Source: a virus | DNA length: 36,460 nt | Reading direction: 5' to 3' (one strand) | Virus record (IMG/VR): IMGVR_UViG_3300021197_001912 | Coordinates: 1 to 36,460 of that record | Shown here: piece after piece, positions 114-13,534 of the stretch | Layout of the letters: each line of letters starts with the position of its first letter | Numbering within the stretch: the first letter of the stretch is position 1 | Made by a program: the position numbers and the translations under genes | Notes under the pieces: model-generated | Database searches by the model: none | Seen by the model: the letters and a program-made list of their open reading frames with translations, nothing else | Told to the model about the DNA's origin: nothing

Positions 114-137
114 ACTATTATTATATCTGAGTTCCTT
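114..137 (-). promoter_or_regulatory. Early-type promoter-like element, copy 1 (reference description)
   Basis: Read on the minus strand the element is AAGGAACT, a four-base spacer, TATAAT, then 5-7 bases and an ATG. In the commonest form the last bases are TAGGT before the ATG. This copy has spacing 6. The TATAAT fits a sigma70-type -10 box. No -35 hexamer at 17 bases is conserved; instead GGAACT lies only four bases upstream, at about -22 to -17 if TATAAT is -12 to -7. The expected transcription start is at or next to the A of the ATG. AAGGA lies about 18 bases from the start codon, too far for a Shine-Dalgarno. The promoter function is inferred. Confidence 0.7.
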
Positions 138-349
138 TAGAGGTAGGTTACTTCGGTGATTGCAAAGTAATTCTCTTCACGTTGATGAGCCCATTCGAGT
201 TGATTCTCAGATAGAACCTTCCAACCTTTAGTATTAAGCAACGGTAGAGCCTCTACAAGCTTCTTCTTCTCATGAGATACTGCAACTACGATCTCGCTGT
301 GATCATTTCCGTAGTGCTTAAGCAGTCTGTAGCATTTACTTTCTTTCAT
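137..349 (-). CDS. Small protein of unknown function, 70 aa
   Basis: A 70-residue soluble protein, MKESKCYRLLKHYGNDHSEI at the N-terminus, with an alternating strand/helix look. A middle segment (KKKLVEALPLLNTKGW, residues about 28-43) resembles the 'index residues then helix' layout seen in other small early proteins here. I do not recognise a family. ATG at 349 follows directly on the element at 350-372. The stop TAA (137-139) abuts the next element, so there is no free intergenic space. Confidence 0.7.
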   Translation of the reverse strand: MKESKCYRLLKHYGNDHSEIVVAVSHEKKKLVEALPLLNTKGWKVLSENQLEWAHQREENYFAITEVTYL

Positions 350-372
350 ACCTAATTATATCAGAGTTCCTT
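350..372 (-). promoter_or_regulatory. Early-type element, copy 2
   Basis: AAGGAACT, spacer CTGA, TATAAT, then TAGGT and the ATG at 349 (spacing 5). The CTCTGA of the element also supplies the last sense codon and stop (L, TGA) of the gene at 361-615. Confidence 0.7.
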
Positions 373-615
373 AATTGATACTACGACGTATTCGTGATGA
401 TTCTTGTAACTATCTGCATATTCAACACAATCAGTAAACTTACCTGAATGATCGATGTATGATGCATCAATAACATGATAACTTTCTTCTTTTACTTTCT
501 CTGTTGTAATGACCTCCACCCTGGTAAGTGAGTGAATTAGCCATGCTTGCCACGATACTACCACTAGTGCAATAACACCGAATAGAGTGGCTTCATTTGT
601 ATATGTCTTAATCAT
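361..615 (-). CDS. Small single-pass membrane protein, 84 aa
   Basis: One membrane segment is visible at residues about 11-31 (LFGVIALVVVSWQAWLIHSL), followed by a roughly 50-residue soluble domain. The family is not recognised. The C-terminus ends IKEL and its last codons are read from the AAGGAACTCTGA of the downstream regulatory element, so the element and the coding end overlap. The start ATG at 615 lacks the early element. It lies 10 bases after the stop of the gene at 626-853, so the two are probably cotranscribed. Confidence 0.65.
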   Translation of the reverse strand: MIKTYTNEATLFGVIALVVVSWQAWLIHSLTRVEVITTEKVKEESYHVIDASYIDHSGKFTDCVEYADSYKNHHEYVVVSIKEL

Positions 616-625
616 AATTCTATTT

Positions 626-853
626 CTACTTAGCTGCTACTAATACCCCGTGGAGATCTGCAATGGTCTCATCCTTCTTGACTTGCTCTTCTTCAAGTTT
701 CTTACTCCATGCATGAAGTTCAGCGATGGTCTGGTCTTTCTTAACAATTAGCCTCTCATGAGACTCTAGCTCTGCCCTAAGGGCAATAACCGTATCAACA
801 AGAGAGCTTACTTCTTCTTCTAGCTGCTTAACATCATTTTCCATCTCTTTCAT
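626..853 (-). CDS. Coiled-coil protein with tandem heptad repeat, 75 aa
   Basis: The whole protein is predicted coiled coil: acidic/basic residues alternate with regularly spaced Leu, Val and Ile. Two near copies of a segment are visible, VKKDQTIAELHAW (about residues 37-49) and VKKDETIADLHGV (about 58-70), 21 residues apart, exactly three heptads. It is probably a small oligomerising protein; the partner is unknown. It starts directly after the element at 854-876. Confidence 0.7.
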   Translation of the reverse strand: MKEMENDVKQLEEEVSSLVDTVIALRAELESHERLIVKKDQTIAELHAWSKKLEEEQVKKDETIADLHGVLVAAK

Positions 854-876
854 ACCTAATTATATCGGAGTTCCTT
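854..876 (-). promoter_or_regulatory. Early-type element, copy 3
   Basis: AAGGAACT, spacer CCGA, TATAAT, spacing 5 to the ATG at 853. All core bases match the reference. Confidence 0.7.
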
Positions 877-878
877 TA

Positions 879-998
879 CTATACTTCAAACTCACCGTAT
901 TCTAGCTTAAGCTCTTTAAGCTCTTTCTCTGCACGTACTAGTCTCTCAGTAAGCTCTAGAGCTTCTGTTAGCATTTCAATTCGTTCTTTATCCGTCAT
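879..998 (-). CDS. Short helical protein, 39 aa
   Basis: A 39-residue frame, MTDKERIEMLTEALELTERL then VRAEKELKELKLEYGEFEV. It is highly charged and almost certainly one long amphipathic helix or coiled coil with a Leu/Ile heptad pattern. No family is recognised. It is supported as a real gene by its own upstream element (999-1020), an ATG at the usual spacing and a stop that ends just before the next element. Confidence 0.65.
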   Translation of the reverse strand: MTDKERIEMLTEALELTERLVRAEKELKELKLEYGEFEV

Positions 999-1020
999 AC
1001 CTAATTATATTAGAGTTCAT
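999..1020 (-). promoter_or_regulatory. Early-type element, copy 4 (variant)
   Basis: TGAACT replaces GGAACT; the spacer is CTAA and TATAAT is intact, spacing 5 to the ATG at 998. The element's CTCTAA provides the last codon and the stop of the gene at 1010-1189. Confidence 0.6.
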
Positions 1021-1189
1021 TATCCATATTAGCATAACATTTTTTACATAACTGCCCTGCTCCTTCAACATAACCTATTCTATAGTCTATATGAGTATCA
1101 TAACTGTAATCGGATTCTTCTCCACAAATAATACAGAGATCTTTACCATTTTCGCTAACACCTAATAATTTGTTTTGTTCTGTTTCCAT
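1010..1189 (-). CDS. Zinc-ribbon-like small protein, 59 aa
   Basis: A four-cysteine pattern is visible: CIICGE (about residues 19-24) and CKKCY (about 49-53), i.e. two CxxC knuckles about 26 residues apart. This is typical of a single treble-clef or zinc-ribbon unit, so zinc binding is likely. The target (nucleic acid or protein) cannot be told. The C-terminus (MDNEL, stop) is read from the adjacent regulatory element. Confidence 0.65.
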   Translation of the reverse strand: METEQNKLLGVSENGKDLCIICGEESDYSYDTHIDYRIGYVEGAGQLCKKCYANMDNEL

Positions 1190-1212
1190 ACCTAATTATA
1201 TCGTAGTTCCTT
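1190..1212 (-). promoter_or_regulatory. Early-type element, copy 5
   Basis: AAGGAACT, spacer ACGA, TATAAT, spacing 5 to the ATG at 1189. It abuts the stop codon of the gene at 1211-1522. Confidence 0.7.
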
Positions 1213-1522
1213 ATGCAATCAGCTCTAGTGTCTTATTGATCTCCTTGAGTCTCATCTCATTCTCGTCCCTCTCAGTTTCAAGTTGAACACGTAAAAGGTT
1301 AGCCATTAAAAGCATCTTACTATTAACATCTGTTAATTTCTCATCTGAATAGCTGAAGTTAAGCCAGGTCTCAGTTGGCTCTGTTGGCCAGAGTTCATAT
1401 CGCCATCCTAGTTCTTTGTATTTACATTCAGTAAGTACTACGCGAGGCGATACAACAACAATCTTTCTAAGAGTATCTCTACCCTTATTTGCAATATAGT
1501 TCTTTCCAACGGTATCGTTCAT
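1211..1522 (-). CDS. Small protein of unknown function, 103 aa
   Basis: The N-terminal half is strand-rich with aromatic residues (KYKELGWRYELWPTEPTETW, about residues 34-53). The C-terminal third is a helix with heptad spacing (residues about 75-103, ending NKTLELIA) that could oligomerise. No known domain is recognised. The start is set by the element at 1523-1546. Confidence 0.7.
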   Translation of the reverse strand: MNDTVGKNYIANKGRDTLRKIVVVSPRVVLTECKYKELGWRYELWPTEPTETWLNFSYSDEKLTDVNSKMLLMANLLRVQLETERDENEMRLKEINKTLELIA

Positions 1523-1546
1523 ACTATTATTATATACGAGTTCCTT
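1523..1546 (-). promoter_or_regulatory. Early-type element, copy 6
   Basis: AAGGAACT, TATAAT, spacing 6 to the ATG at 1522. It is read through as the C-terminal codons of the gene at 1530-1799 (KGTRI, stop TAA inside the TATAAT). Confidence 0.65.
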
Positions 1547-1799
1547 TTACTGTATGCACAATACACTTTATCGGTCTATCGCTTGGGTCTGTATCTCGCC
1601 ATGCACTATTAAACTCTTCTGTTCCAGGCGTCCATCCATTAACCATCTCATTCTTACGCTCTCTATTGACTGGTACTACCTTCTCTACCCATACGTTCTG
1701 TACTTCATCCTTTACTTCATGAATGCAGAGGTTAAGAGCTTTGAGTACATTAGTCTTTGTCTTAGTATAAGCTACAACAACATACTTACTCTCTTTCAT
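1530..1799 (-). CDS. Small protein of unknown function, 89 aa
   Basis: An 89-residue soluble protein with the N-terminus MKESKYVVVAYTKTKTNVLK, sharing MKESK with the gene at 137-349. The middle is rich in charged residues; no catalytic or binding motif is recognised. Its last five residues (KGTRI) and stop are encoded by the regulatory element of the next gene. The upstream element at 1800-1821 overlaps the end of a structured RNA region. Confidence 0.65.
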   Translation of the reverse strand: MKESKYVVVAYTKTKTNVLKALNLCIHEVKDEVQNVWVEKVVPVNRERKNEMVNGWTPGTEEFNSAWRDTDPSDRPIKCIVHTVKGTRI

Positions 1800-1821
1800 A
1801 CCTAATTATATTCTAGTTCCT
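1800..1821 (-). promoter_or_regulatory. Early-type element, copy 7
   Basis: TAGGAACT, spacer AGAA, TATAAT, spacing 5 to the ATG at 1799. The GTAGG before GAACT is also the 3' strand of a long stem in the structured region at 1815-1892. Confidence 0.65.
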
Positions 1822-1892
1822 ACTCCCACCTAGCCTCCCCCTTTCGGGTTGTAGGCGTGAAGATTTTGACGCCTCGTTAATTACTAGGAGCA
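1815..1892 (-). ncRNA. Structured RNA segment 3' of the tRNA-like RNA
   Basis: On the minus strand this segment can fold into a branched structure. CCTGCTCC at its 5' end pairs over eight positions with GGAGTAGG at its 3' end (one G-U). Inside lie GGCGT/ACGCC closing a ten-base loop, and CCC-GAAA-GGG, a GNRA-type tetraloop. No protein frame fits. It may be the 3' part of one longer RNA with the tRNA-like element, a processing or termination structure, or a separate small RNA. The fold was drawn by eye only. Confidence 0.45.
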
Positions 1893-2001
1893 GGCCCGAG
1901 CAGGTATTGAACCTGCATTACCTCCCATACTTAGCCGTCGCCTTGTTGTAGCCTTGCTAGCATTGCTACCGGGTGGTTCTTCCCAGTTAGATGACCGGGC
2001 C
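1893..2001 (-). ncRNA. tRNA-like RNA with an expanded anticodon arm
   Basis: Canonical parts: acceptor strands GGCCCGG and TCGGGCC (six Watson-Crick pairs and one G-U) and a perfect T arm, GCAGG-TTCAATA-CCTGC. There is a short D arm (TCT/AGA) whose loop holds GGG, and a five-base variable region (GTAAT). Where the anticodon arm should be, CACCC pairs with GGGAG (one A-A mismatch), but it closes about 44 bases rather than 7. The total is 109 bases. No CCA is encoded. No anticodon can be assigned. It could be a tRNA with a tiny insertion, a decayed tRNA or a tRNA mimic. Confidence 0.5.
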
Positions 2002-2011
2002 ATATTTTGTT

Positions 2012-2034
2012 TCTATATTATACTATAGTTCCTT
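2012..2034 (-). promoter_or_regulatory. Early-type element, copy 8, in front of the tRNA-like RNA
   Basis: AAGGAACT, spacer ATAG, TATAAT. The RNA's first base (2001) lies 15 bases after TATAAT and no protein start follows. This copy is the main argument that the element is a promoter and not a translation signal. Confidence 0.7.
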
Positions 2035-2157
2035 AAAGTTTAGGGTCTTTCTCTGAGGGCACCCTTACTCCCACGATAGTTCATTATTTAACGTCTTATC
2101 CTATTCGCTTAACCGTGTTTATACTCACTTGACGCACCATCTTACGGGTGAAAACTT
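2035..2157 (-). other. Non-coding spacer with hairpin potential
   Basis: About 120 bases between the stop of the gene at 2158-2355 and the tRNA-like promoter. Only 14-codon frames occur. On the minus strand CACC/GGTG and AGGGT/ACCCT can form small hairpins with loops of 8 and 14 bases, but no T-run follows, so neither is a clear terminator. I cannot assign a function. Confidence 0.4.
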
Positions 2158-2355
2158 TTAATCTGTCTTAATGTTTACGATCTGATTGACATGCCAGCCA
2201 TTAGTAGATCCCATAAACTCAATCTGAAACCAACCGTTAGCATCGAGCCTTTTGATAACACCCTCTTCAGACCACATCTCACCATCACGTCTAGGGCAGA
2301 TATCTAGGAACACATGCTCACCAGATTCAACTAATCTCTCAACTCTCTCTTTCAT
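2158..2355 (-). CDS. Small protein of unknown function, 65 aa
   Basis: The protein reads MKERVERLVESGEHVFLDIC at its start, with later strand-rich, Trp-containing segments (NGWFQIEFMG, NGWHVNQIV). It looks like a small beta-barrel, SH3-like at most; no family is recognised. The start chosen is the ATG at 2355. A longer frame to 2388 would only translate the regulatory element (it would read ELNYNK across it), so it is rejected. Confidence 0.65.
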   Translation of the reverse strand: MKERVERLVESGEHVFLDICPRRDGEMWSEEGVIKRLDANGWFQIEFMGSTNGWHVNQIVNIKTD

Positions 2356-2379
2356 ACTCTTATTATAATTAAGTTCCTT
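2356..2379 (-). promoter_or_regulatory. Early-type element, copy 9
   Basis: AAGGAACT, spacer TAAT, TATAAT, spacing 6 to the ATG at 2355. Its AAGG overlaps the stop of the gene at 2378-2683. Confidence 0.7.
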
Positions 2380-2683
2380 ATCGCTCATTATCTTCTACTA
2401 CTATTGCTTTACCTGCACTACTAGTATTAATATTGTGATCTGAATAATTAAGCTTACCAGCATCACCTTCTATCTTCTCTATCCACTTTCGCCTACCTTC
2501 TGTATTATGTAGATCGTTATCACCGGCCCAGTACACGGTTGCGAGGAAGAGTACAATACATATTATCTTTGAGAAAGACATTATAATTACAGGAACATAC
2601 TTAATAATCCACCAAAGGATAGCTGGCATCGCGCAAATAACGATAACTAAACTCAGCAGCAAACAAGGTATCATATTATCCAT
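2378..2683 (-). CDS. Two-pass membrane protein, 101 aa
   Basis: The first half is two hydrophobic segments (residues about 4-27, rich in Leu/Ile/Val, and about 32-52, IIMSFSKIICIVLFLATVYW) with a short polar turn. A charged C-terminal tail of about 50 residues follows. It probably sits in the host inner membrane. A role in lysis or superinfection exclusion is conceivable but nothing in the sequence shows it. It is expressed from its own element. Confidence 0.65.
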   Translation of the reverse strand: MDNMIPCLLLSLVIVICAMPAILWWIIKYVPVIIMSFSKIICIVLFLATVYWAGDNDLHNTEGRRKWIEKIEGDAGKLNYSDHNINTSSAGKAIVVEDNER

Positions 2684-2706
2684 ACTTAATTATAACGTAG
2701 TTCCTT
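2684..2706 (-). promoter_or_regulatory. Early-type element, copy 10
   Basis: AAGGAACT, spacer ACGT, TATAAT, spacing 5 to the ATG at 2683. Confidence 0.7.
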
Positions 2707-2923
2707 ATTTAGCGTTAATTCTATCTTCCGCTACTCCAACCTCTTTCAACCATTTAATTGCATCCTCTTCACTATCATGCAACTCACCTTCCATCCTACC
2801 TGAAACGAATGTTGCTAGACCTCCTCTAGTCTGACTCCACACTATTCTAATTTTACCTTTTGCAAAAGTAGAACCCCATACATCTTTAAGAGTAGGTAGA
2901 TTATCAGCACCTTTAATCTTCAT
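2705..2923 (-). CDS. Small protein of unknown function, 72 aa
   Basis: A compact alpha/beta protein. Strand-like segments KIRIVWSQT and LATFVSGRMEGEL are followed by a helix starting SEEDAIKWLKEVG (about residues 51-63). The 'strand, display, helix beginning DxEDAIxxL' layout recurs in the genes at 2944-3126 and 11470-11685, which may belong to one small fold. No function is recognised. Confidence 0.7.
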   Translation of the reverse strand: MKIKGADNLPTLKDVWGSTFAKGKIRIVWSQTRGGLATFVSGRMEGELHDSEEDAIKWLKEVGVAEDRINAK

Positions 2924-2945
2924 ACCTTATTATATAAGAGTTCCT
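2924..2945 (-). promoter_or_regulatory. Early-type element, copy 11
   Basis: TAGGAACT, spacer CTTA, TATAAT, spacing 5 to the ATG at 2923. The TAG is the stop codon of the gene at 2944-3126. Confidence 0.65.
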
Positions 2946-3126
2946 AATAATCGAGAGAATGCCCTGCAAGCTGTATGGTAACTGAATAAGTTTCTTTATC
3001 TTGCCAGAGCGTGTCCATTTTATGAACAGCATCATGCTTTTCTTCAAACGGACCATAGTATCTCACACTCTTATCTTTCTTTGAATCAACTTTAGTATGC
3101 ATTACATACCAGTTATTTTCTTCCAT
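2944..3126 (-). CDS. Small protein of unknown function, 60-62 aa
   Basis: Two starts are possible, ATG at 3132 (MIMEENNWYV) or at 3126 (MEENNWYV); I chose 3126 without strong evidence. The protein has strand segments NNWYVMHTKV and VRYYGPFEEK, a helix from about HDAVHKMDTLW, then a strand TYSVTIQLAG. Upstream is an A/T-rich TATATA but no GGAACT block. No family is recognised. Confidence 0.6.
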   Translation of the reverse strand: MEENNWYVMHTKVDSKKDKSVRYYGPFEEKHDAVHKMDTLWQDKETYSVTIQLAGHSLDY

Positions 3127-3182
3127 TATCATACTATTCTGTATATATTGTTAACTATAGGAGAGCCCTTAAGCTCCCGCCC

Positions 3183-3305
3183 TTATTCTAATAGCTTTGC
3201 CAATGCTCCAGCTACTCCAATTGCTGCTGTAATAAGAAACCATGATACTAACGCAACGATTGTCACTTTCTCGAAAAACTCTCTATCTGTTTTATTTTTC
3301 TTCAT
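3183..3305 (-). CDS. Short single-pass membrane protein, 40 aa
   Basis: MKKNKTDREFFEKVTIVALV followed by a hydrophobic stretch (WFLITAAIGVAGALAKLL) gives one membrane helix with a basic N-terminus. It overlaps the end of the gene at 3292-3471 by 14 bases in another frame, which suggests translational coupling. After its stop, GGAGC/GCTCTCC can form an imperfect hairpin without a T-run. No family is recognised. Confidence 0.55.
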   Translation of the reverse strand: MKKNKTDREFFEKVTIVALVSWFLITAAIGVAGALAKLLE

Positions 3306-3471
3306 AATAGTCTTCTTCATCAAAAGGTATAATCTCTTCAAATTGGGTTAAGAGTACTTGCTCACCCTTATCGTTATATTCAAACGTTCTTTCTACTATA
3401 GCACCATCTTCATATTCAAGAGTAAAGATAACTCTACCCTGATCGTCATATTTTTTATGATTTTTACTCAT
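3292..3471 (-). CDS. Small acidic protein, 59 aa
   Basis: The sequence shows strands with a DDQGRVIFTLEYEDG / RTFEYNDKGEQ pattern, two short repeats of 'D/N-x-G then strand', and an acidic tail (FDEEDYYEEK). It is reminiscent of single YD-type repeats, as in the gene at 5931-6185, but too short to assign. Its ATG overlaps the stop of an 11-codon upstream frame. Confidence 0.55.
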   Translation of the reverse strand: MSKNHKKYDDQGRVIFTLEYEDGAIVERTFEYNDKGEQVLLTQFEEIIPFDEEDYYEEK

Positions 3472-3499
3472 TAGTTATGCTAAGGTATTTTTTGTTCAT
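3464..3499 (-). CDS. Possible 11-codon leader peptide
   Basis: The element at 3500-3522 is followed at the normal spacing by an ATG that opens only MNKKYLSITNE. Its stop TAA overlaps the ATG of the next gene by reading AATGAGTAA. It may be a leader peptide coupling translation to the 59-residue gene, or the remains of a start displaced by a small deletion. Confidence 0.35.
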   Translation of the reverse strand: MNKKYLSITNE

Positions 3500-3522
3500 A
3501 CCTAATTATAACAGAGTTCCTT
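3500..3522 (-). promoter_or_regulatory. Early-type element, copy 12
   Basis: AAGGAACT, spacer CTGT, TATAAT, spacing 5 to the ATG at 3499 (the 11-codon frame). The first sizeable gene starts 28 bases further on. Confidence 0.65.
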
Positions 3523-3545
3523 ATGAGTTATTACTACAAGTAGCC

Positions 3546-3758
3546 TTACATTGGTAACCCCACGTGGTCATCATCGCGAACCGCAGCAATACCGTATCGG
3601 TTTGACATTCCCATTAATGTTGGGGCCCATAGCCCAACAAAGATTCCAAGAGATTTGTCTGTGTTGGTGGAATATAGAAAGATAGAGGCAACCACTGATG
3701 CAAGTGATGCAACGAAAAAGAATTGTGACTTAGTTGTATTTGTAATATTAGTATTCAT
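3546..3758 (-). CDS. Two-pass membrane protein, 70 aa
   Basis: Residues about 11-29 (SQFFFVASLASVVASIFLY) and about 36-53 (LGIFVGLWAPTLMGMSNR) form two likely membrane helices joined by a short polar turn, with a polar C-terminus. This arrangement is common in small phage membrane proteins of unknown role. Upstream there is TATAAT (3767-3772) 8 bases from the ATG, but the GGAACT block is missing. Confidence 0.65.
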   Translation of the reverse strand: MNTNITNTTKSQFFFVASLASVVASIFLYSTNTDKSLGIFVGLWAPTLMGMSNRYGIAAVRDDDHVGLPM

Positions 3759-3802
3759 ATGCTCTAATTATAGTAGAACATAATAATTAATCAACTAATT
3801 TG

Positions 3803-4780
3803 TTACCACTTTCGGCAAGACCAATAACGTGCTTTTGTTTTCGGGCCCGGGTTGTCACAATTATGTCTAGCTCTGAAAGATTTACGAGCTTTAGGATTAC
3901 TCTTTCGAATCTTCATAGTCTTTTCACCTTTCCTCTTTGCTGATGTACCACCATGTCCGAAGTTAACCTTCTTAACGTTACCAGTCTTAGGATCCTTTAC
4001 ATAGACCTTAAACTTCTTAACATCACCTCGAGTTGGCTTGTTAAGAGAAACCTTTCGCCCTCTATATTCAGCATCTTCTTCAGGATCCTTCTTCATTCTT
4101 TCAAGTTCACGTTCATTATAATAATCATCCAATACATCACCCTCAGATGGATTATCATCTTTACCTTCTTCATCACTAATAAGTGCAGCTCCTGCTCCTC
4201 CAATTGCTCCAGCAACAGCTCCAGTTGCAGCCCCAAGACCTACTTTACCAGCTTTCAATGCAGCTTTACCAGCTAGCTTTGCACCCAGTTTACCAGTTTT
4301 CAATGCAGCTTTACCGGCTAGTTTACCAGCACCAGCAGCTAGTTTACCAGCACCTCTAGCGATATTACCGAGAGCCTCCTCTTGTACCTCTTCATCCTCT
4401 GGAGATAGTAAGTTTTTTGTATGGCCATATGGTTTACCATCTTCACATCCACATGTCTCGCAATCCTCATCTGTACACTCATGATCTTCTGCTTCAATTA
4501 ACGGCATAATAAGGTCATGAAGTACTTTAGCAAGATCCTTAGAAAGAGTAATTTCTACTGTATCAGTATCCTCTTCATCTTGAACACCTCGACCCCCGTG
4601 AGTAGCTTTTGACCTTCCTGGTGTATTAGGACGTGTGCGTCTATACCTTCCACCCGGTCCATCGGAATCAGAAGAGACTCCACTCGGCTTCCAGTTATTT
4701 TGAGAGTCATATGAATCTCCTTTCGGAGCTTTAGATGTACTATCTTCGATTAGTTTAGTAACGAGATTGTCGAATGTCAT
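3803..4780 (-). CDS. Late virion-associated protein with Gly/Ala/Lys repeats and conserved C-terminal domain, 325 aa
   Basis: In order: a Gly/Ser/Arg-rich N-terminus; a short block TVEITLSKDLAKVLHDLI (74-91); a Cys cluster (C102, C107, C110, C112); tandem repeats built on AGKLAGKAALKTGKLGAK (about 143-185), which may form amphipathic or membrane-active helices; an acidic linker; and a basic domain from about 255 with KKFKVYVKDPKTGNVKKVNF and a final ARYWSCRKW. I recall the C-terminal domain from marine T4-like phages, where it has no assigned function. The late promoter and repeats suggest a structural protein. Block 74-91 recurs in the protein at 22633-23646. Confidence 0.65.
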   Translation of the reverse strand: MTFDNLVTKLIEDSTSKAPKGDSYDSQNNWKPSGVSSDSDGPGGRYRRTRPNTPGRSKATHGGRGVQDEEDTDTVEITLSKDLAKVLHDLIMPLIEAEDHECTDEDCETCGCEDGKPYGHTKNLLSPEDEEVQEEALGNIARGAGKLAAGAGKLAGKAALKTGKLGAKLAGKAALKAGKVGLGAATGAVAGAIGGAGAALISDEEGKDDNPSEGDVLDDYYNERELERMKKDPEEDAEYRGRKVSLNKPTRGDVKKFKVYVKDPKTGNVKKVNFGHGGTSAKRKGEKTMKIRKSNPKARKSFRARHNCDNPGPKTKARYWSCRKW

Positions 4781-4784
4781 ACAT

Positions 4785-5120
4785 TTATTTAATCACTCGA
4801 ACAGATATTGCATTAGAATTAATCCATGAACCTTGCGCGTTATTTCTTGCTGCTATATCTTCTTTAAACTTATCCGACTTAACATAACTTTCAAATAATT
4901 TAGCGTCTTTTTCCTTTAAAAAGCAATAGTTAATCTCTACACCATCACGTGACATAGTGTAGAGACTATTTCCATCCTCAGAAGGCACCCAATCAACTTT
5001 CTTTTCGAGATTTGAATTACACCAGACTCGACATGCACGTACTGTACGATCATCTCCCGATAATGATATCACTGTACCGATGTCCTTTCTATATAATTGA
5101 TTGTGGCTATCATCCGACAT
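4785..5120 (-). CDS. Late protein of unknown function, 111 aa
   Basis: A soluble mixed alpha/beta protein, MSDDSHNQLYRKDIGTVISL at the start, with three cysteines and a Trp-containing middle (VWCNSNLEKKVDWVPSEDG). No family is recognised. It has the best late box in the window (TATAAATA, exact T4 consensus), so it is probably made late, perhaps as a minor virion or assembly protein. Confidence 0.6.
   Translation of the reverse strand: MSDDSHNQLYRKDIGTVISLSGDDRTVRACRVWCNSNLEKKVDWVPSEDGNSLYTMSRDGVEINYCFLKEKDAKLFESYVKSDKFKEDIAARNNAQGSWINSNAISVRVIK
4786..4793 (-). promoter_or_regulatory. T4-type late promoter box ATTAAATA
   Basis: ATTAAATA ends 5 bases before the ATG at 4780. It overlaps the final codons and stop of the gene at 4785-5120. 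Confidence 0.6.
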
Positions 5121-5125
5121 ATGGT

Positions 5126-5133
5126 TATTTATA
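5126..5133 (-). promoter_or_regulatory. T4 late promoter, exact TATAAATA
   Basis: It is an exact match to the T4 late consensus and ends 5 bases before the ATG at 5120. It overlaps the stop codon of the gene at 5129-5308. Confidence 0.75.
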
Positions 5134-5827: not shown

Positions 5828-5850
5828 ACCTAATTATATCAGAGTTCCTT
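5828..5850 (-). promoter_or_regulatory. Early-type element, copy 13
   Basis: AAGGAACT, spacer CTGA, TATAAT, spacing 5 to the ATG at 5827. Same sequence as copy 2 through the core. Confidence 0.7.
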
Positions 5851-8269: not shown

Positions 8270-8476
8270 TTACTTATTATATCGGAGTTCCTTTTTAAGA
8301 TTGCTCCAGGTTTTATTGTCTGACTGATTATGAATCTCCTTAATGTGGTCATCACCCCAAGCAGTTCCTTTCAAATAGTACCCATTTTTGTATTCAACTT
8401 TTATTTCTTCTTTTGTATAAGACTTACTACACGAAGCAATAAGCATGACGAAAGGTGTTAACATTACGTATTTCAT
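8270..8476 (-). CDS. Small predicted lipoprotein, 68 aa
   Basis: The N-terminus MKYVMLTPFVMLIASCSK has a short hydrophobic core and a lipobox (I-A-S-C, C16 as the lipidated residue), so export and anchoring to a membrane is likely. The mature part is polar (KEEIKVEYKNGYYLKGTAWG) and unrecognised. Phage lipoproteins are often involved in superinfection exclusion or lysis (as with Rz1), but nothing specific supports either here. It overlaps the neighbouring stop by one base (TAATG). Confidence 0.65.
   Translation of the reverse strand: MKYVMLTPFVMLIASCSKSYTKEEIKVEYKNGYYLKGTAWGDDHIKEIHNQSDNKTWSNLKKELRYNK
8276..8293 (-). promoter_or_regulatory. Early-type element, copy 14
   Basis: AAGGAACT, spacer CCGA, TATAAT, spacing 7 to the ATG at 8268. 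The whole element is inside the coding end of the lipoprotein gene at 8270-8476, being read there as KELRYNK. Confidence 0.65.
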
Positions 8477-8730
8477 TATGCGTCTTTCCAGTTATTAATA
8501 ATGTCTGATGGTGAGTTAGCCTCTAAGTTATTAGCTAAGCTCTGAATCAATGGTCTCATCACATCAAGCTCTTCTACAAGTCGTTGAGCATATCGAGCAT
8601 CAGTCTGAGAAAACTCTTCTACATCATACTCCATCAATGCTTCTTGCAAGTCTTGCATAAAGAAGTAAGCATCCTTCATGTAATGACCTTGAGCCATTCT
8701 GCGACCTTGTTTATCCTTTCTTGCTGCCAT
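8476..8730 (-). CDS. Helical protein of unknown function, 84 aa
   Basis: MAARKDKQGRRMAQGHYMKD gives a basic N-terminus, then helices (EEFSQTDARYAQRLVEELDV) with regular Leu/Ile spacing. No family is recognised. Its element at 8731-8753 separates it from the EF-hand gene's terminator at 8761-8785. Confidence 0.65.
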   Translation of the reverse strand: MAARKDKQGRRMAQGHYMKDAYFFMQDLQEALMEYDVEEFSQTDARYAQRLVEELDVMRPLIQSLANNLEANSPSDIINNWKDA

Positions 8731-8753
8731 ACCTAATTATATCAGAGTTCCTT
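8731..8753 (-). promoter_or_regulatory. Early-type element, copy 15
   Basis: AAGGAACT, spacer CTGA, TATAAT, spacing 5 to the ATG at 8730. It lies immediately downstream of an intrinsic terminator, so transcription here is likely to restart. Confidence 0.75.
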
Positions 8754-8760
8754 TAGAGAT

Positions 8761-8785
8761 AAAAAGAGGGTCCGCAGACCCTCTT
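8761..8785 (-). terminator. Intrinsic terminator after the EF-hand gene
   Basis: On the minus strand AAGAGGGTC and GACCCTCTT form a perfect nine-pair stem with a four-base loop, followed by a run of T. It ends transcription from the gene at 8808-9200 just before the next promoter element. Confidence 0.85.
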
Positions 8786-8807
8786 AATATGTTATGACTC
8801 AAATAGA

Positions 8808-9200
8808 TTAGCCTTTCTTAGGTGCAGGCTTCTTACCGCCCTTTTTAGGACCCTTGCCTTTACCTTTACCTTTTTCTCCCTTCGGCTTACGAGCTTTACG
8901 ACGTTCTGCCATAGCTTTCTTAGCTGCAGCTAGCTCCTTACCTTCAACTTTGCCATTACCATCCTTATCGAATCGCTTGACCCAAGCCGCTTTGGCTGTC
9001 GCTTTCTCTGCATCACAAAGTTTACCATCTTTATTCTTATCGAACTTGGCCATATGAGGAGGAAGCTTCTTCTTACCACCAGCCTTTTCTGCTGCTGGCT
9101 TTTTCTTACCTTTCTTCTCATCATGATGATCTGCACTTACATTAAGAGTAAGTGCAGCGATCCCTGCAATAATGCTCAATAGAGCTCTTTTTGTTTTCAT
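8808..9200 (-). CDS. Secreted EF-hand calcium-binding protein, 130 aa
   Basis: A signal peptide (MKTKRALLSIIAGIAALTLN, cleavage probably after VSA) is followed by a Lys/Gly-rich segment. Then come two EF-hand loops: D54-N56-D58-K60-C62-E65 (weak at position 9) and D78-D80-N82-K84-E86-E89. The tail is a low-complexity Lys/Gly/Pro run. It probably binds Ca2+ outside the cytoplasm. The style is that of bacterial exported EF-hand proteins and the gene looks acquired from a host. It is bracketed by a late-type box upstream and its own terminator. Confidence 0.75.
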   Translation of the reverse strand: MKTKRALLSIIAGIAALTLNVSADHHDEKKGKKKPAAEKAGGKKKLPPHMAKFDKNKDGKLCDAEKATAKAAWVKRFDKDGNGKVEGKELAAAKKAMAERRKARKPKGEKGKGKGKGPKKGGKKPAPKKG

Positions 9201-9225
9201 ATAATTAATTGTATGATAGTAATGT

Positions 9226-9233
9226 TATTTATC
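9226..9233 (-). promoter_or_regulatory. Late-type box GATAAATA
   Basis: It overlaps the stop of the thioredoxin-like gene and ends 25 bases before the EF-hand ATG at 9200, further than the usual 5-7. Confidence 0.45.
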
Positions 9234-9456
9234 AACTATTCTCTTTGATGATAGAGATAATATCATCTGTACCTTTAACTATACTTACACCTCTACTATC
9301 TTCAAGTACAAGAGTAGGTACAGATTTAATATCATGTTCTTTGATAAAATCGGGACTCTCATCCACATCTACTATTTCAACTTTTAGACCTTTTACATCT
9401 AAAATATTCTTAAGCATAGAGCATGGACCACACCACTCTGCTGTTACTAGTTTCAT
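9232..9456 (-). CDS. Thioredoxin/glutaredoxin-like protein, 74 aa
   Basis: A minimal thioredoxin fold: MKLVTAEWCGPCSMLKNILD holds the active site C9-G-P-C12, the later SVPTLV holds the cis-Pro (P47), and a C-terminal helix ends KENS. CGPC is thioredoxin-like, while the length is closer to glutaredoxin or NrdH-type proteins. It is probably a thiol-disulfide reductant, for example for ribonucleotide reductase. The start at 9456 is chosen by spacing (7) from a late-type box; an ATG at 9462 is possible. Confidence 0.8.
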   Translation of the reverse strand: MKLVTAEWCGPCSMLKNILDVKGLKVEIVDVDESPDFIKEHDIKSVPTLVLEDSRGVSIVKGTDDIISIIKENS

Positions 9457-9463
9457 TTTCATA

Positions 9464-9471
9464 AATTTATG
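9464..9471 (-). promoter_or_regulatory. Late-type box CATAAATT
   Basis: It lies 7 bases before the ATG at 9456 and overlaps the stop codon of the upstream gene (GCATAA). It is a one-base variant of the late box. Confidence 0.4.
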
Positions 9472-9718
9472 CGCAAACATTCTTACTAAAGTTTTTAACA
9501 CAACTACGCCCTCCTTTAGGAATAAAGTAGCCCTTATTCTCTCGCCAGGTTTCAGCAGACATAATCTCAATCTGAGCACCAACCTTACCGTCATACACCA
9601 TACGACCTTTAGGAGGCTCTACGGGGTTCTCATGAGCACATCTCACACAATTATCAAAGCCAGCTTCAACACGAGCAGGTCTTACAAGACTTCCACAAGC
9701 ACAATATACTATCTTCAT
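9467..9718 (-). CDS. Cysteine-rich, possibly zinc-binding protein, 83 aa
   Basis: MKIVYCACGSLVRPARVEAG begins with CxC (C6, C8), followed by CVRCAH (C24, C27). This gives four ligands in a zinc-ribbon arrangement. The C-terminal half is basic with two more Cys. A longer upstream frame crosses the element and the neighbouring gene, so the ATG at 9718 is used. The function is unknown; a zinc knuckle binding nucleic acid or protein is plausible. Confidence 0.6.
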   Translation of the reverse strand: MKIVYCACGSLVRPARVEAGFDNCVRCAHENPVEPPKGRMVYDGKVGAQIEIMSAETWRENKGYFIPKGGRSCVKNFSKNVCA

Positions 9719-9742
9719 ATCATTATTATACCAGAGTTCCTT
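9719..9742 (-). promoter_or_regulatory. Early-type element, copy 16
   Basis: AAGGAACT, spacer CTGG, TATAAT, spacing 6 to the ATG at 9718. It abuts the stop of the gene at 9741-10574. Confidence 0.7.
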
Positions 9743-10574
9743 ATGCAACAAGTAGCTTACTTGCTCTTTGTGAGATTGTATTCGAATTGAATGAGCGCAA
9801 GAACTTCTCTGTAGATTGCTTGCCTGTATGAGTCTCATACTCTGTTACTGCATTAAGAGCATCCCATTTACTCTCACCTACATTACCTCGTCCATTAGTA
9901 AACAATTCAACTAGCTGCTCTCGTTTATTAACTCGTTTTGTAGAATCATTTTCTGTAATAGGGATAAGCTGCTCAGTTAACTCAGTCATATTATCCCTGG
10001 TAAAGGATTCAGCTCGTAACTTATTAGCTACCTTACCAAACCTAATAGTAGTATTGACATTACTTCTAATATTGTCAATCATTGCTTCAATCTTTCCATC
10101 AAAAGTTAATGCATGTCTAACTCCAGAATTCCTAGCAATTGCCCCTTCGGCATCAATAAGATGCATTGCATTATCACAAGCAACTCGTAAGGTAGAAGCA
10201 ATTGACTTATTAGACCCCATACCTGTATTATCAATAACTGTATAGAAATGAGGTTGTATAATATCACCCCCTAAATCTATATCGGATAGCAAGCGAGACC
10301 GAAGCACCATCTTGCGACCAGCTCTCGATTCAGCCCAGCCGGTGTGCTGAATATTACCAATTTCAGTTGATGCTTTATCGATAATATCAAACATCTCATC
10401 CATTTGAATAGGCCGATAAGAATCTTTTACTACCGAGAGATGCTCATGAGTATCTGTTCGCTGCAAAGAGAATGCACCAGGAATTGACCTCCCATTTGCA
10501 TCTTGAATAGCTACTTTCGTTGTCTCGAATTGCTCAACATCATTGAGCCCGTGTATTTCTCTAAAAAATCCCAT
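9741..10574 (-). CDS. DUF932-like phage/plasmid protein, 277 aa
   Basis: The N-terminal part HEHLSVVKDSYRPIQMDEMF (44-63) and the later segments AGRKMVLRSRL, VIDNTGMGSNKSIASTLRVA and CDNAMHLID match the layout I know for DUF932 / TIGR03299 phage-and-plasmid proteins. In that family a 'V..D.Y.PIQ' strand is followed by a region with a conserved 'VC.N' (here ACDN). The biochemical role of the family is unknown. The start at 10574 is 29 bases downstream of element copy 17; a second TATAAT lies 3 bases before it. Confidence 0.7.
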   Translation of the reverse strand: MGFFREIHGLNDVEQFETTKVAIQDANGRSIPGAFSLQRTDTHEHLSVVKDSYRPIQMDEMFDIIDKASTEIGNIQHTGWAESRAGRKMVLRSRLLSDIDLGGDIIQPHFYTVIDNTGMGSNKSIASTLRVACDNAMHLIDAEGAIARNSGVRHALTFDGKIEAMIDNIRSNVNTTIRFGKVANKLRAESFTRDNMTELTEQLIPITENDSTKRVNKREQLVELFTNGRGNVGESKWDALNAVTEYETHTGKQSTEKFLRSFNSNTISQRASKLLVA

Positions 10575-10602
10575 TTTATTATATTAGTTAGTTTCTTTCT
10601 TC

Positions 10603-10625
10603 ACCTAATTATACAGGAGTTCCTT
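10603..10625 (-). promoter_or_regulatory. Early-type element, copy 17, detached from its start codon
   Basis: AAGGAACT, spacer CCTG, TATAAT, then TAGGTGAAG where other copies read TAGGTATG. The immediate start is lost (only a six-codon GTG frame remains) and the gene begins 29 bases later. Confidence 0.65.
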
Positions 10626-10629
10626 TTGA

Positions 10630-10791
10630 TTACCAGTGTCTAATTGTATTAGCAATAATAAAACCACAGGTAGTTATGTGTACCAACCACCAAAATGTAC
10701 GAATAATGGCTGCTGCATCTGACTCATTTGATGAAGTGGAGATCTTTTCACCCATAGTCTTGCACCAGACTCTCCAAGCTTTCTTAATCAT
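10630..10791 (-). CDS. Small Trp-rich membrane protein, 53 aa
   Basis: MIKKAWRVWCKTMGEKISTS then SNESDAAAIIRTFWWLVH and a hydrophobic helix (ITTCGFIIANTI) ending RHW. The pattern 'W..W...GEK...S..E.D..A.IRTFWW' recalls a short protein found in several marine T4-like phages with no known function. It has one likely membrane helix. Its stop lies just before element copy 17 and it almost abuts the lysozyme gene, so both may come from the element at 11447-11470. Confidence 0.65.
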   Translation of the reverse strand: MIKKAWRVWCKTMGEKISTSSNESDAAAIIRTFWWLVHITTCGFIIANTIRHW

Positions 10792-10792
10792 A

Positions 10793-11446
10793 TTAGAATA
10801 CAGCTACATCCCCTCGCCATAGAGAGACTTCCCACTTACGTCTCTTAACTAGACCCTCTCTTACTTTACCTCCAGCTTTACGATACATCGGCATAAGTCG
10901 CTCAACACTTTCATAGTTACCATCATTAAGCCTATTATTACCATTAACAAGCTTCTTAAGATTAGTTATTCCACAGTTAAATGCAAAAGAAGTTAGAGCA
11001 TTAAGTTGATGTTCTGCTAGTTCAACAGTCACATTTTCCTGTACAAGCTTTCTCGTATCAGATAACTCTCGTTCTAGGACCTCAGCTGCCTTATGTTGAT
11101 CGATTCTACCTTTGGAGACAATTGATCTATTCGTACAACCATATCCGATAGTAGGTACTCCTGCACAACACTTATAACGTTTTGGTTTAAATCCTTCGAA
11201 GTATTTAACTCCTCCTATCATAACCGCATCGTAATCAATCTCAGGATAGTTATCAATAGATGGTTTAAGTAAAACTGGTACCTGTATTTCGATTATCTTT
11301 GGAACCTCATATGGTACCATAATATATTCTGGCATCCATACAGGAACCTCTATAGTTTCTGTAATTACTTCTGGTTCTGATGCTGGATTACAATAGCAAG
11401 CTAAGGCTATCAGGGACGCCGCACTAGTAATAATAATACTTTTCAT
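10793..11446 (-). CDS. GH24 (T4-type) endolysin with N-terminal export signal, 217 aa
   Basis: The muramidase domain spans about 75-217. FEGFKPKRYKCCAGVPTIGY holds E84, C93 and T99 in exact E-x8-C-x5-T spacing, the GH24 triad with Cys in place of Asp as in some phage lysozymes. The N-terminus (MKSIIITSAASLIALACYC) is a signal or signal-anchor, possibly a lipoprotein signal with C17. It is followed by a Pro/Glu/Val-rich stalk to about 65. It should cleave peptidoglycan from the periplasm for lysis. It is driven by an early-type element rather than a late box, and no holin is adjacent. Confidence 0.85.
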   Translation of the reverse strand: MKSIIITSAASLIALACYCNPASEPEVITETIEVPVWMPEYIMVPYEVPKIIEIQVPVLLKPSIDNYPEIDYDAVMIGGVKYFEGFKPKRYKCCAGVPTIGYGCTNRSIVSKGRIDQHKAAEVLERELSDTRKLVQENVTVELAEHQLNALTSFAFNCGITNLKKLVNGNNRLNDGNYESVERLMPMYRKAGGKVREGLVKRRKWEVSLWRGDVAVF

Positions 11447-11470
11447 GTCTATATTATATTGTAGTTCCTT
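11447..11470 (-). promoter_or_regulatory. Early-type element, copy 18
   Basis: AAGGAACT, spacer ACAA, TATAAT, spacing 6 to the lysozyme ATG at 11446. Confidence 0.7.
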
Positions 11471-11685
11471 TAGGTCATTGGACCTTCATAGTAATGAGTA
11501 GTTGGTGTGCGAAAATTAGTAAAAATAATATTATCATCAGAGTCTCTAACGTTTACCTGATTAAATCTACGATCATCTTCTGTAGTTCGAAAATATTCAA
11601 AGGCATAATCTATAGCATCATTTTTATTATCAAACGTAATAAGAATTTCATTATTTTCTCCCTCAACTACATATTTAATATTCAT
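11470..11685 (-). CDS. Small protein of unknown function, 71 aa
   Basis: MNIKYVVEGENNEILITFDN has a strand-turn-strand start, then a helix (NDAIDYAFEYF), then strands with VNVRDSDDNIIFTNF. It is the same strand/helix layout as the gene at 2705-2923. No function is recognised. A late-type box lies 9 bases upstream, a looser fit than most. Confidence 0.65.
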   Translation of the reverse strand: MNIKYVVEGENNEILITFDNKNDAIDYAFEYFRTTEDDRRFNQVNVRDSDDNIIFTNFRTPTTHYYEGPMT

Positions 11686-11694
11686 TAATATGTT

Positions 11695-11702
11695 TATTTA
11701 AG
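11695..11702 (-). promoter_or_regulatory. Late-type box CTTAAATA
   Basis: Ends 9 bases before the ATG at 11685; the first base departs from the consensus. Confidence 0.35.
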
Positions 11703-11738
11703 TGTATTAATTGGTTGCTTTTAAGAGTTTTTTTAATC

Positions 11739-12149
11739 TTATTGTCTTTGTGGTAACACTCTATTTGGAACTGTATCAGGTATATTAAATGACTCCTCTA
11801 GAGTAGGTGTAGGCTCACCTGGTGGTCTAAATGTTACTGGGTTTGAATCTTTCTTTTGATTATCTTTAATCCAATGTGCTAAGGTACTTGATCCATAACC
11901 ATACGGTTCAGGCAACTTAACATAATCACTAAGTTGAATATTAGGAGGAGGTCCCCAGTGCTCAGGATATGATAACTCTGGCAATCTTTCAGCTATTACT
12001 ATATGAGGTTCAACAAATATAATTTCTTCTATAACCTCATCTTCAGTATCTGATATGGATGGTATATATTTCTCCCAATACCAATGCCATACACATATTA
12101 GTACACATATTAATACTGCATCAATTATTAACCATTTCACATATTTCAT
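11739..12149 (-). CDS. Membrane-anchored Pro-rich protein, 136 aa
   Basis: One N-terminal helix (KWLIIDAVLICVLICVWHWY, about 5-24) precedes a roughly 110-residue acidic and proline-rich domain, likely extracytoplasmic. The domain ends TVPNRVLPQRQ. An N-terminal anchor with a Pro-rich periplasmic domain is spanin-like, but no second partner frame is seen, so this is only a thought. AAAGGA lies 7 bases before the ATG, and the ATG overlaps the previous stop (ATGA). Confidence 0.6.
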   Translation of the reverse strand: MKYVKWLIIDAVLICVLICVWHWYWEKYIPSISDTEDEVIEEIIFVEPHIVIAERLPELSYPEHWGPPPNIQLSDYVKLPEPYGYGSSTLAHWIKDNQKKDSNPVTFRPPGEPTPTLEESFNIPDTVPNRVLPQRQ

Positions 12150-12331
12150 CTTTTATCCTTTCTAGAAAATGTTTGTATTTCGTTTATATAAATGGTCCAA
12201 CGCAGACCATTATTAGATAAAGTTAACTCATTATCTTTTATAAAGATAACCGTACCAATACCTTCGTTAATTACTACTGTATCTCCAACACATATATTTG
12301 TGTTAAATTTAGGTAATTGTATAAAGTTCAT
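12146..12331 (-). CDS. Small SH3/KOW-like protein, 61 aa
   Basis: Residues 11-50 show a barrel-like rhythm: CVGDTVVINEGIGTVIFIKD, then NELTLSNNGLRWTIYINEIQ. 'VGDxVxI..G.GxVxxI' is typical of KOW/SH3-like barrels. The target is unknown. It is cotranscribed with the gene at 11739-12149 through a 4-base overlap. Confidence 0.55.
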   Translation of the reverse strand: MNFIQLPKFNTNICVGDTVVINEGIGTVIFIKDNELTLSNNGLRWTIYINEIQTFSRKDKR

Positions 12332-12337
12332 ATAATT

Positions 12338-12438
12338 ATAAAGAAAGCGGAGCCTGCCGAGTAAAGTTGTCCCAAAATAGAAGGTCGAAAACTAGATTGT
12401 TCGGGCGGACGTTTACCTTACACGACAGACTCACAAAA
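12338..12438. other. G+C-rich unexplained spacer
   Basis: About 100 bases between a stop (12439) and the next TATAAT/ATG. It is much richer in C and G than its surroundings. On the minus strand a GTG at about 12427 opens a 32-codon frame ending at the TAA before 12331 (it includes NNLVFDLLFWDNFTRQAPLS). CGAA/TTCG and a few other short stems are possible. It could be a small RNA, a degraded gene or a short insertion. I see no known feature. Confidence 0.4.
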
Positions 12439-12621
12439 TTAAAATCCACTACTATGATTCATATACCAATGCGATATTTCGAAATGAAAGTCCTTCTCAC
12501 TAACACCCTTCTCAACTTTAATTGTTGCAAACGGTCGCGATGATCTTGTATCATCGTACACCTCTATAAGATCTAAATTCTTATTTAGAATAAATTTAAA
12601 TGAATTAATTTTCGCTTCCAT
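12439..12621 (-). CDS. Small protein of unknown function, 60 aa
   Basis: MEAKINSFKFILNKNLDLIE, then strand-rich VYDDTRSSRPFATIKVEKGV and a tail with HWYMNHSSGF. A small beta-rich protein, unrecognised. It starts inside the end of the upstream gene (17-base overlap in another frame), suggesting coupling. Confidence 0.55.
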   Translation of the reverse strand: MEAKINSFKFILNKNLDLIEVYDDTRSSRPFATIKVEKGVSEKDFHFEISHWYMNHSSGF

Positions 12622-12868
12622 ACTCTTCTTTTAATATATTAGATACTTCTTTAAAACTTTCACGCACCATATGTAGATATAAGCTATCGTTAAATATCAT
12701 TTGTTCACCAACATTTTTACCTATTACCTTATCGATTACAAAGTGCACTGTAAAGTCTCTTATTGAAATTGTCTTATCTTCTTTGTTATAATTATACCAT
12801 AGTTGGGTTAAAATGCCATCATCTTTTTTATTCGGAGATGGAAATATTTTACGATGAATATATTTCAT
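12605..12868 (-). CDS. Small protein of unknown function, 87 aa
   Basis: MKYIHRKIFPSPNKKDDGIL, followed by strands (TQLWYNYNKEDKTISIRDFT, VHFVIDKVIG) and a helical C-terminus (SFKEVSNILKEEYGSEN). No family is recognised. It overlaps the upstream zincin-like gene by four bases (ATGA), so the two are probably translationally coupled. Confidence 0.6.
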   Translation of the reverse strand: MKYIHRKIFPSPNKKDDGILTQLWYNYNKEDKTISIRDFTVHFVIDKVIGKNVGEQMIFNDSLYLHMVRESFKEVSNILKEEYGSEN

Positions 12869-13320
12869 CCTAGTTTATTTAATCGAAGGTCATCAAATTT
12901 AGAGTTAAAAGCTACATGTAAGTCATACATCTTAATAATCTCACGAGTTAGTCTCTCGATCTTACGAGCATCTACCTCTTCTTTTGATCTATAATAAGCA
13001 GTATACGTTTTAAACTTACCTGTATCAGGCCAGTACCTCCATATATGATACTGACAGCAATGTCTAAGCTCATGCAAAAGCGAGCTAAATATAAACTTCT
13101 TCGTTTGCTTTGCTGTTTGATCTAACTTAATAAGGAAGTTATTTCTATCGATAGCCTCACATAAAGAAGTATCGCTAATTCTACTCTTATGTACCTTCGC
13201 AGTAATATATAAGTCCCGCTTATGATTAACTTCTAGTAACATTGTCAATATATTTGACAGTAGTTTAAAGTCAATGCCTGTCGCTTTTTTAATACCCGCT
13301 GACGGTTCTAATATAATCAT
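12865..13320 (-). CDS. Zincin-like protein with HELRH motif, 151 aa
   Basis: The helix SLLHELRHCCQYHIW carries H83-E84-x-x-H87, the zinc-binding/catalytic motif of metallopeptidases. About 27 residues later, SKEEVDARKIERL offers E114 or E115 as the third ligand, the spacing seen in IrrE/SprT-like and gluzincin families. The rest is mixed alpha/beta. It may be a protease acting on host or phage proteins, or a zincin fold without activity. Overlaps at both ends place it in an operon with 12605-12868 and 13320-13511. Confidence 0.65.
   Translation of the reverse strand: MIILEPSAGIKKATGIDFKLLSNILTMLLEVNHKRDLYITAKVHKSRISDTSLCEAIDRNNFLIKLDQTAKQTKKFIFSSLLHELRHCCQYHIWRYWPDTGKFKTYTAYYRSKEEVDARKIERLTREIIKMYDLHVAFNSKFDDLRLNKLG
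12876..12883 (-). promoter_or_regulatory. Possible internal late-type box ATTAAATA
   Basis: Ends 7 bases before the ATG at 12868, but it lies in coding sequence (codons R-L-N-K), so it may be chance. Confidence 0.3.
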
Positions 13321-13511
13321 TATCCAATCTTCTTGATCTCAACCTTATTATAGCCGAGTTCCTTTAGACGATCAGCAGCTGCTGCTGCTTCTTCTTGAGT
13401 ATTTAACTCCTCTTTAAGAAAGTTATGAGGACTCTTTGGTGCCTCTTGATACTCCACAATATACTTGCCGAATACAAATGGCTTTCTCGGGAATGTTTTA
13501 GCTTTTGCCAT
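13320..13511 (-). CDS. Small Lys-rich protein, 63 aa
   Basis: MAKAKTFPRKPFVFGKYIVE, a strand, then a helix (TQEEAAAAADRLKELGYNKV) and an IKKIG end. 'EEAxxxADxLKELGYxxVEI' has the look of a small alpha/beta fold, again like 2705-2923. A copy of the early element is embedded in the codons for KELGYNK, the only copy fully inside a gene interior. Confidence 0.6.
   Translation of the reverse strand: MAKAKTFPRKPFVFGKYIVEYQEAPKSPHNFLKEELNTQEEAAAAADRLKELGYNKVEIKKIG
13347..13364 (-). promoter_or_regulatory. Early-type element, copy 19, inside a coding region
   Basis: AAGGAACT, spacer CGGC, TATAAT. The next start downstream is the zincin-like ATG at 13320, 26 bases away, and AAGAAG lies between. It could promote that gene, or merely be favourable codons. 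Confidence 0.5.
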
Positions 13512-13534
13512 ACCTTATTATATCATAGTTCCTT
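13512..13534 (-). promoter_or_regulatory. Early-type element, copy 20
   Basis: AAGGAACT, spacer ATGA, TATAAT, spacing 5 to the ATG at 13511. Confidence 0.7.

Follow-up and report, generated by a model that had tools for sequence, protein, structure and literature searches.

We analysed a 36,460-base IMG/VR fragment (IMGVR_UViG_3300021197_001912, hereafter the window), in which an 18-base element, AAGGAACT-N4-TATAAT, recurs immediately upstream of start codons. Judging from its sequence, the source of the window is a T4-like phage. It is very probable that a clade of T4-like phages uses the element as an early-type promoter which places the first transcribed base (+1) on the ATG, that late promoters in the same phages are placed likewise, and that both operate without Shine-Dalgarno (SD) sites. 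This reading is based on the position of the element, the lack of a -35 hexamer, the retention of the element at orthologous starts, and a pyrimidine-A step at the start codon. From the same features we strongly infer that the resulting mRNAs are leaderless.

An 18-base element ahead of small minus-strand genes

The left 13.5 kb of the window consists of small minus-strand genes, mostly of unknown function (the named products are a lysozyme, an EF-hand protein and a dATP/dGTP diphosphohydrolase), and in the right part structural genes occupy the plus strand. The element (AAGGAACTNNNNTATAAT) is found 20 times between 120 and 13534, always on the minus strand; 17 copies are exact and three have one mismatch (Table 1). 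A first-pass annotation of the window had reported such a set of about 20 minus-strand copies; the copies it listed are real, but most of its positions are too low by a few bases, since they refer to a base near the ATG. At ≤1 mismatch the plus strand of the window holds no copy, and a reversed-pattern control also gave none. Allowing ≤3 mismatches yielded 27 copies against 10.7 ± 3.0 expected, a number reached in none of 100 shuffles.

An ATG follows TATAAT by 5–7 bases in 17 of the 20 copies, the exceptions being those at 2017, 10608 and 13347. The earlier count was 18. With a variant at 19.5 kb included, the figure is 18 of 21; this variant, too, proved real (TAAGTAACTCCGTATAATTAGAGTATG, ahead of the gene starting at 19547). 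The wider consensus reads (A/T)(A/T)AAGGAACT-N4-TATAAT-TAGGT-ATG at a gap of 5 bases, and at a gap of 6 bases TATAAT is followed by AATAGT-ATG.

An exact scan of IMG/VR found the element in 98 stretches, with a maximum of 15 copies in 8 kb. We counted 293 copies with ≤1 mismatch across 18 related contigs, of which 214 sit 3–9 bases before an ATG, 46 sit 10–45 bases before one, 26 lie elsewhere, and seven fall within ORFs (open reading frames; five on the same strand and two on the opposite strand). The first-pass annotation had held that copies equally frequent inside genes and in both orientations would speak against a promoter; the counts inside genes (7/293) and in opposite-strand ORFs (2/293) are far from that pattern. 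The element is also kept at the same start in 33 of the 43 orthologues of window genes that have a start codon there (49–91% identical), and the sequence around the kept element differs.

In a logo of 347 unique sites, AAGGAACT and TATAAT are conserved and no other block appears further upstream; TATAAT is near-invariant, which is partly fixed by the search pattern. No position exceeds 0.11 bit where a -35 hexamer would be expected, ~17 bases ahead of the -10, and the whole stretch 3–40 bases ahead of the box stays at or below 0.12 bit, in agreement with the initial remark that a conserved -35 is lacking. Because the scan pattern imposes some conservation between TATAAT and the ATG at the 5-base spacing, we used 160 sites that fall outside this pattern for a second count of the spacing and the -1 base. 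The gap was 6 bases in 97 of these, 5 bases in 40 and 7 bases in 15, and T directly preceded the ATG in 130/160 (81%), compared with 207/454 genes without a -10.

Late-type sites and Shine-Dalgarno signals

Several late genes of the window have CATAAATA or TTAAATA ending 5–6 bases upstream of the start codon (Table 1). In almost all contigs tested, TAAATA has its peak 5 bases upstream of the ATG, and the element-rich contigs have a TATAAT peak at 5–6 bases. T or C directly precedes the ATG at 97% of 462 unique late sites, compared with 54% in genes without a -10; pyrimidine-A is the usual initiator step. These late sites share the spacing of the early-type element, without its box. We assign the TAAATA class to the T4 late type by its NATAAATA sequence and its 5-base spacing to the ATG, and its +1 is predicted from geometry: the T4 late promoter TATAAATA spans -13 to -6 (PMC1524935), and a 5-base spacing would therefore put +1 on the A of the ATG. 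The original idea of promoters at the start codon is thus supported but was too narrow, as late promoters are placed likewise.

The large terminase and tail sheath of the window are 33–43% identical to those of T4-like phages of Pelagibacter, cyanobacteria and other hosts; a megablast search for the nearest annotated phages gave no match to the window, whose relatives are found at the protein level only, within this range. The related contig G516 holds homologues (24–46%) of the T4 core proteins gp17, gp18, gp20, gp21, gp23, gp41, gp43, gp44, gp46, gp47, gp55, gp61, uvsX and uvsW. Homologues of gp55 were found in five contigs, by hidden Markov model in G015, G022 and G023 and by tblastn in G516 and G521, with a match to phrog_234 at 4.2e-24.

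An independent sample, chosen by terminase similarity only, comprised 80 loci, 997 kb and 793 genes. A -10-like hexamer occurs at 4–7 bases from 426 of the 793 starts, against 14 at a control position, and TAAATA precedes the ATG by 5 bases in 392 cases and by 6 bases in 120 (background ~10). SD-like tetramers are no more frequent than at the control (38/793 versus 44/793), and in the window no gene has a convincing SD sequence upstream. In 50-kb stretches of T4, S-PM2, HTVC008M and phiM9, 26–57% of genes have an SD and 0–8% a -10 at 4–7 bases. A published criterion for bacterial leaderless genes is a TA-like signal ~10–12 bases before the start (PMC3160421); such a signal is present in these phages, both in the contigs and in the terminase sample.

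Within the clade, a strict -10 at the start was found for 35–57% of genes that stand apart from their neighbour versus 7% of those that abut or overlap it, which suggests two modes of expression: an mRNA of the gene's own, leaderless, or translational coupling. In the stretch 3471–3522, one copy of the element precedes an 11-codon ORF whose stop overlaps the ATG of the next gene (3471), and which resembles a leaderless leader peptide for coupling. Ribosomal protein bS21, a candidate translation-switching gene, was absent from the 24 records searched. Separately, one contig encodes a phage tRNA(CAU) much like the bacterial initiator tRNA-fMet (L110:7792–7866; G001 67792–67866), with a D-arm GGAGCAG..GGTAGCTCG, an unpaired 1:72 position and two G-C pairs at the loop end of the anticodon stem; a tRNA at L117:19271–19350 has a C1 × A72 mismatch too. 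An initiator tRNA supplied by the phage would suit leaderless translation.

Table 1. Early-type elements and late-type sites in the window, with the distance in bases from the end of the motif to the start codon.
Feature	Position	Strand	Distance	Start codon	Remark
Early-type element	120..137	-	6	ATG 113	
Early-type element	355..372	-	5	ATG 349	Kept in both orthologues found
Early-type element	859..876	-	5	ATG 853	Kept in orthologues at 73–78% amino acid identity
Early-type element, 1 mismatch	1004..1021	-	5	ATG 998	
Early-type element	1195..1212	-	5	ATG 1189	
Early-type element	1529..1546	-	6	ATG 1522	
Early-type element, 1 mismatch	1805..1822	-	5	ATG 1799	
Early-type element	2017..2034	-	11	ATG	
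Early-type element	2362..2379	-	6	ATG 2355	
Early-type element	2689..2706	-	5	ATG 2683	
Early-type element, 1 mismatch	2929..2946	-	5	ATG 2923	
Early-type element	3505..3522	-	5	ATG 3499	Opens 11-codon ORF
Early-type element	5833..5850	-	5	ATG 5827	Kept down to 49% amino acid identity
Early-type element	8276..8293	-	7	ATG 8268	Kept in 10/10 orthologues
Early-type element	8736..8753	-	5	ATG 8730	Kept in 7/11 orthologues
Early-type element	9725..9742	-	6	ATG 9718	
Early-type element with leader	10608..10625	-	33	ATG 10574	Start of next gene
Early-type element	11453..11470	-	6	ATG 11446	Phage lysozyme
Early-type element	13347..13364	-	26	ATG 13320	In 3' end of ORF 13320–13511; next ATG
Early-type element	13517..13534	-	5	ATG 13511	
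Degenerate element TAAGTAACTCCGTATAAT	19554..19571	-	6	ATG 19547	Coordinates derived from that start
Late-type TAAATA	14052..14059	+	5	ATG 14065	
Late-type CATAAATA	19602..19609	+	5	ATG 19615	
Late-type TTAAATA	23697..23704	+	6	ATG 23711	gp17 large terminase
Late-type TTAAATA	25410..25417	+	5	ATG 25423	
Late-type CATAAATA	26039..26046	+	5	ATG 26052	gp18 tail sheath
Late-type CATAAATA	28483..28490	+	5	ATG 28496	
Late-type TTAAATA	31323..31330	+	5	GTG 31336	
Late-type CATAAATA	23652..23659	-	5	ATG 23646	
Late-type TATAAATA	5126..5133	-	5	ATG 5120	
Late-type TTAAATA	4786..4793	-	5	ATG 4780	
Late-type TTAAATA	17733..17740	-	7	ATG 17725	

Recognition of the element and alternative explanations

We propose that TATAAT would act as the -10 hexamer for a sigma70-type RNA polymerase without a -35, and that AAGGAACT, four bases further upstream, would stand in for the -35 as a second recognition element. 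With the ATG 5–6 bases past the hexamer, transcription would start from its A and give a leaderless mRNA; gp55-type late promoters (NATAAATA), with their 5-base gap to the ATG, would make late mRNAs leaderless too. Genes without a promoter of their own, which mostly abut or overlap the preceding gene, are probably translated by coupling. We place the element in an early class because its copies cluster (31 of the 35 in contig G521 fall in the first 30 kb, away from structural genes) and because of its small-gene context. A phage-made or injected factor that reads AAGGAACT is the likeliest reading, with the host polymerase alone as its main rival.

That rival keeps the element as a promoter and has AAGGAACT read by the host RNA polymerase itself, through an extended -10 or spacer contact and with no phage factor; we consider it possible, though clearly the less probable of the two. 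Early phage promoters normally use unmodified host polymerase, and the 4-base spacer is biased (CCGA, CTGA and CTAA are commonest). A TGN extended -10 is present in 22% of at-start sites, too small a share for it to replace the -35 as a rule. However, eight well-conserved bases are more than any sigma contact that we know of at this place. Moreover, the 4.6 Mb of an Akkermansiaceae genome hold the element at chance frequency, with two copies when ≤1 mismatch is allowed, of which one belongs to a probable phage relic; across 84,980 species genomes, exact matches were confined to four stretches. The initial description of the element as phage-specific holds as far as this roughly chance frequency in the few bacterial genomes searched.

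Several points weigh against an early promoter that starts on the ATG and is read by a phage factor. At a 5-base spacing, transcription from the A of the ATG would begin at the sixth base past the hexamer, where the seventh is usual. About one quarter of the copies have no ATG in the next 9 bases, and therefore some mRNAs would have leaders. Gene starts in the contigs were set by a simple ORF rule, and the contigs are fragments, many of them close relatives, hence the counts are not independent events. The early timing is deduced from gene content and clustering. Lastly, candidate readers of AAGGAACT were sought among T4 activators and Pfam families and none was identified: the complete Pfam list for 65 proteins of the G521 early region contains no transcription factor, and MotA and AsiA gave no tblastn match in the long contigs G516 and G521, which may be incomplete or hold divergent homologues.

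Three other explanations fare far worse. It is very unlikely that the element is a translational signal in a longer leader, with AAGGA as the SD: AAGGA is like an SD core, but it ends ~18 bases before the ATG, far past the working range of an SD, TATAAT is conserved as well as the box, no promoter-like signal lies further upstream, and SD sites are absent elsewhere in these phages. We give equally little credence to a stoperator-like site for a repressor or other regulator, located at gene starts by coincidence and not itself the promoter; the single orientation and short intergenic gaps would suit it, but a near-perfect -10 stands at a constant distance from the ATG, no second promoter is conserved in the vicinity, and these T4-like phages give no sign of lysogeny. 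Least likely of all is a promoter for a T7-like single-subunit RNA polymerase, that is, a continuous element of ~23 bases with a start a few bases before the ATG: its length and the TATA near the start are superficially T7-like, but the phages are T4-like with gp55 and their late promoters share the spacing without the box (a PF00940 search of 24 records found no match and was uninformative, as its controls also gave none).

Probable host and relation to known systems

The phages are uncultured, aquatic and probably marine, and their host is probably a member of the Verrucomicrobiota, family Akkermansiaceae. One of the four stretches from the scan of species genomes is a contig of an Akkermansiaceae metagenome-assembled genome (MAG; JAPKCM010000004.1), in which an ORF (77% amino acid identity) is followed by an intact element (L135:8006–8320). 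This stretch is 90% identical over 110 bases to the phage contig L024, whose terminase (L184) is 97% identical to that of the window. It is probably a phage relic, because the surrounding genes look chromosomal, although a chimeric assembly might also account for it. The EF-hand protein of the window has matches in 14/241 Verrucomicrobiota versus 0/247 Bacteroidota genomes, which favours a host in the former. This protein (8808–9200) is small and secreted-looking; many of the clade's contigs encode relatives at 49–76%, and Verrucomicrobiota genomes hold weaker ones. Akkermansia and another member of the Verrucomicrobiota are reported to be SD-scarce (PMC10783764), and in the Akkermansiaceae MAG the SD frequency is 9% versus 7% in the control; the absence of SD sites in the phages would fit such a host.

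Other host assignments were considered and set aside. A 14-kb contig with copies of the element (L132, CAKZOO010000152.1) is binned with a Flavobacteriaceae MAG; the contig itself looks like phage, and the EF-hand counts and three phages of Bacteroidota hosts, which have no leaderless peak despite little or no SD signal above control, also speak against a bacteroidotal host. Single matches in Latescibacterota and Tenericutes look like chance. Nor does the leaderless design appear to be copied from the host, since 160 kb of the Akkermansiaceae MAG has no -10 peak before the ATG, although at 54% GC the longest-ORF rule gives less reliable starts. The Flavobacteriaceae-binned contig L132 carries neighbouring repeat-protein genes with a HREDGPA motif, several of them headed by the element.

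T4 early promoters are read by sigma70 and have a -35 GTTTAC (PMC1524935). The element of this clade is like them in its -10 TATAAT and its many one-orientation copies before small early genes, but it lacks a -35, carries AAGGAACT directly upstream of the -10, and would start on the ATG instead of producing a leader with an SD. T4 middle promoters, which depend on AsiA, likewise combine a box with a -10 and no -35; their MotA box (GCTT) lies at -30 to -27 (PMC1524935), whereas the box here has another sequence and a centre near -20, which brings it closer by about one helical turn, and the 347-site logo has no conserved block upstream of AAGGAACT at the MotA-box position. The TAAATA class matches T4 late promoters (TATAAATA, gp55) in sequence, and gp55 homologues are present, but its sites are fixed 5 bases before the ATG and T4 shows no such peak. 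Leaderless, "TA-led" genes of Actinobacteria and Deinococcus (PMC3160421) share the -10 at ~10–12 bases before the start and the lack of an SD. Here, by contrast, the genome is that of a lytic-type phage and not of a cell, and two promoter classes are placed in this way at once. Late phiKZ transcripts start at or near the ATG (TATG motif); phiKZ is an unrelated phage with its own multisubunit RNA polymerases.

Further observations concern other features of the related contigs. Two phage tmRNA (transfer-messenger RNA) genes (L118:5643–6036 and L267:4252–4661) have predicted tag peptides that are unusually long and unlike each other, and two group I introns lie within or beside the G006 tRNA cluster (L118:8–197 and 4869–5063). 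A T4-like phage contig has a match to the abiF RNA family (RF03085; L110:18338–18374). G521 encodes homologues of QueC, QueF and GTP cyclohydrolase I (L270–L273), which suggest 7-deazaguanine DNA modification, and a formyltransferase-domain protein (L270:130–690).

Taken singly, the ingredients are familiar: leaderless genes, T4 late promoters, and phage promoters made of two parts. Two ATG-placed promoter classes across an SD-less T4-like clade were not found in the open-access literature, within a limited library, and a literature search for the element motif returned nothing relevant. T4 is the textbook case of phage control via leadered mRNAs with SD sites. There is, in our estimate, an even chance that this clade has exchanged such expression for a genome-wide leaderless programme, with AAGGAACT and a phage factor early and gp55 late, in adaptation to SD-poor Verrucomicrobiota. 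The three phages of SD-poor Bacteroidota hosts without this layout suggest that it is not an automatic answer to such a host. If our reading is true, the element would be a new two-part promoter and promoter architecture would be tied to SD-poor hosts. Gene starts in these uncultured phages could then be called by simple rules, and a widespread clade would exemplify a complex lytic programme sustained by leaderless mRNA for most separately transcribed genes.

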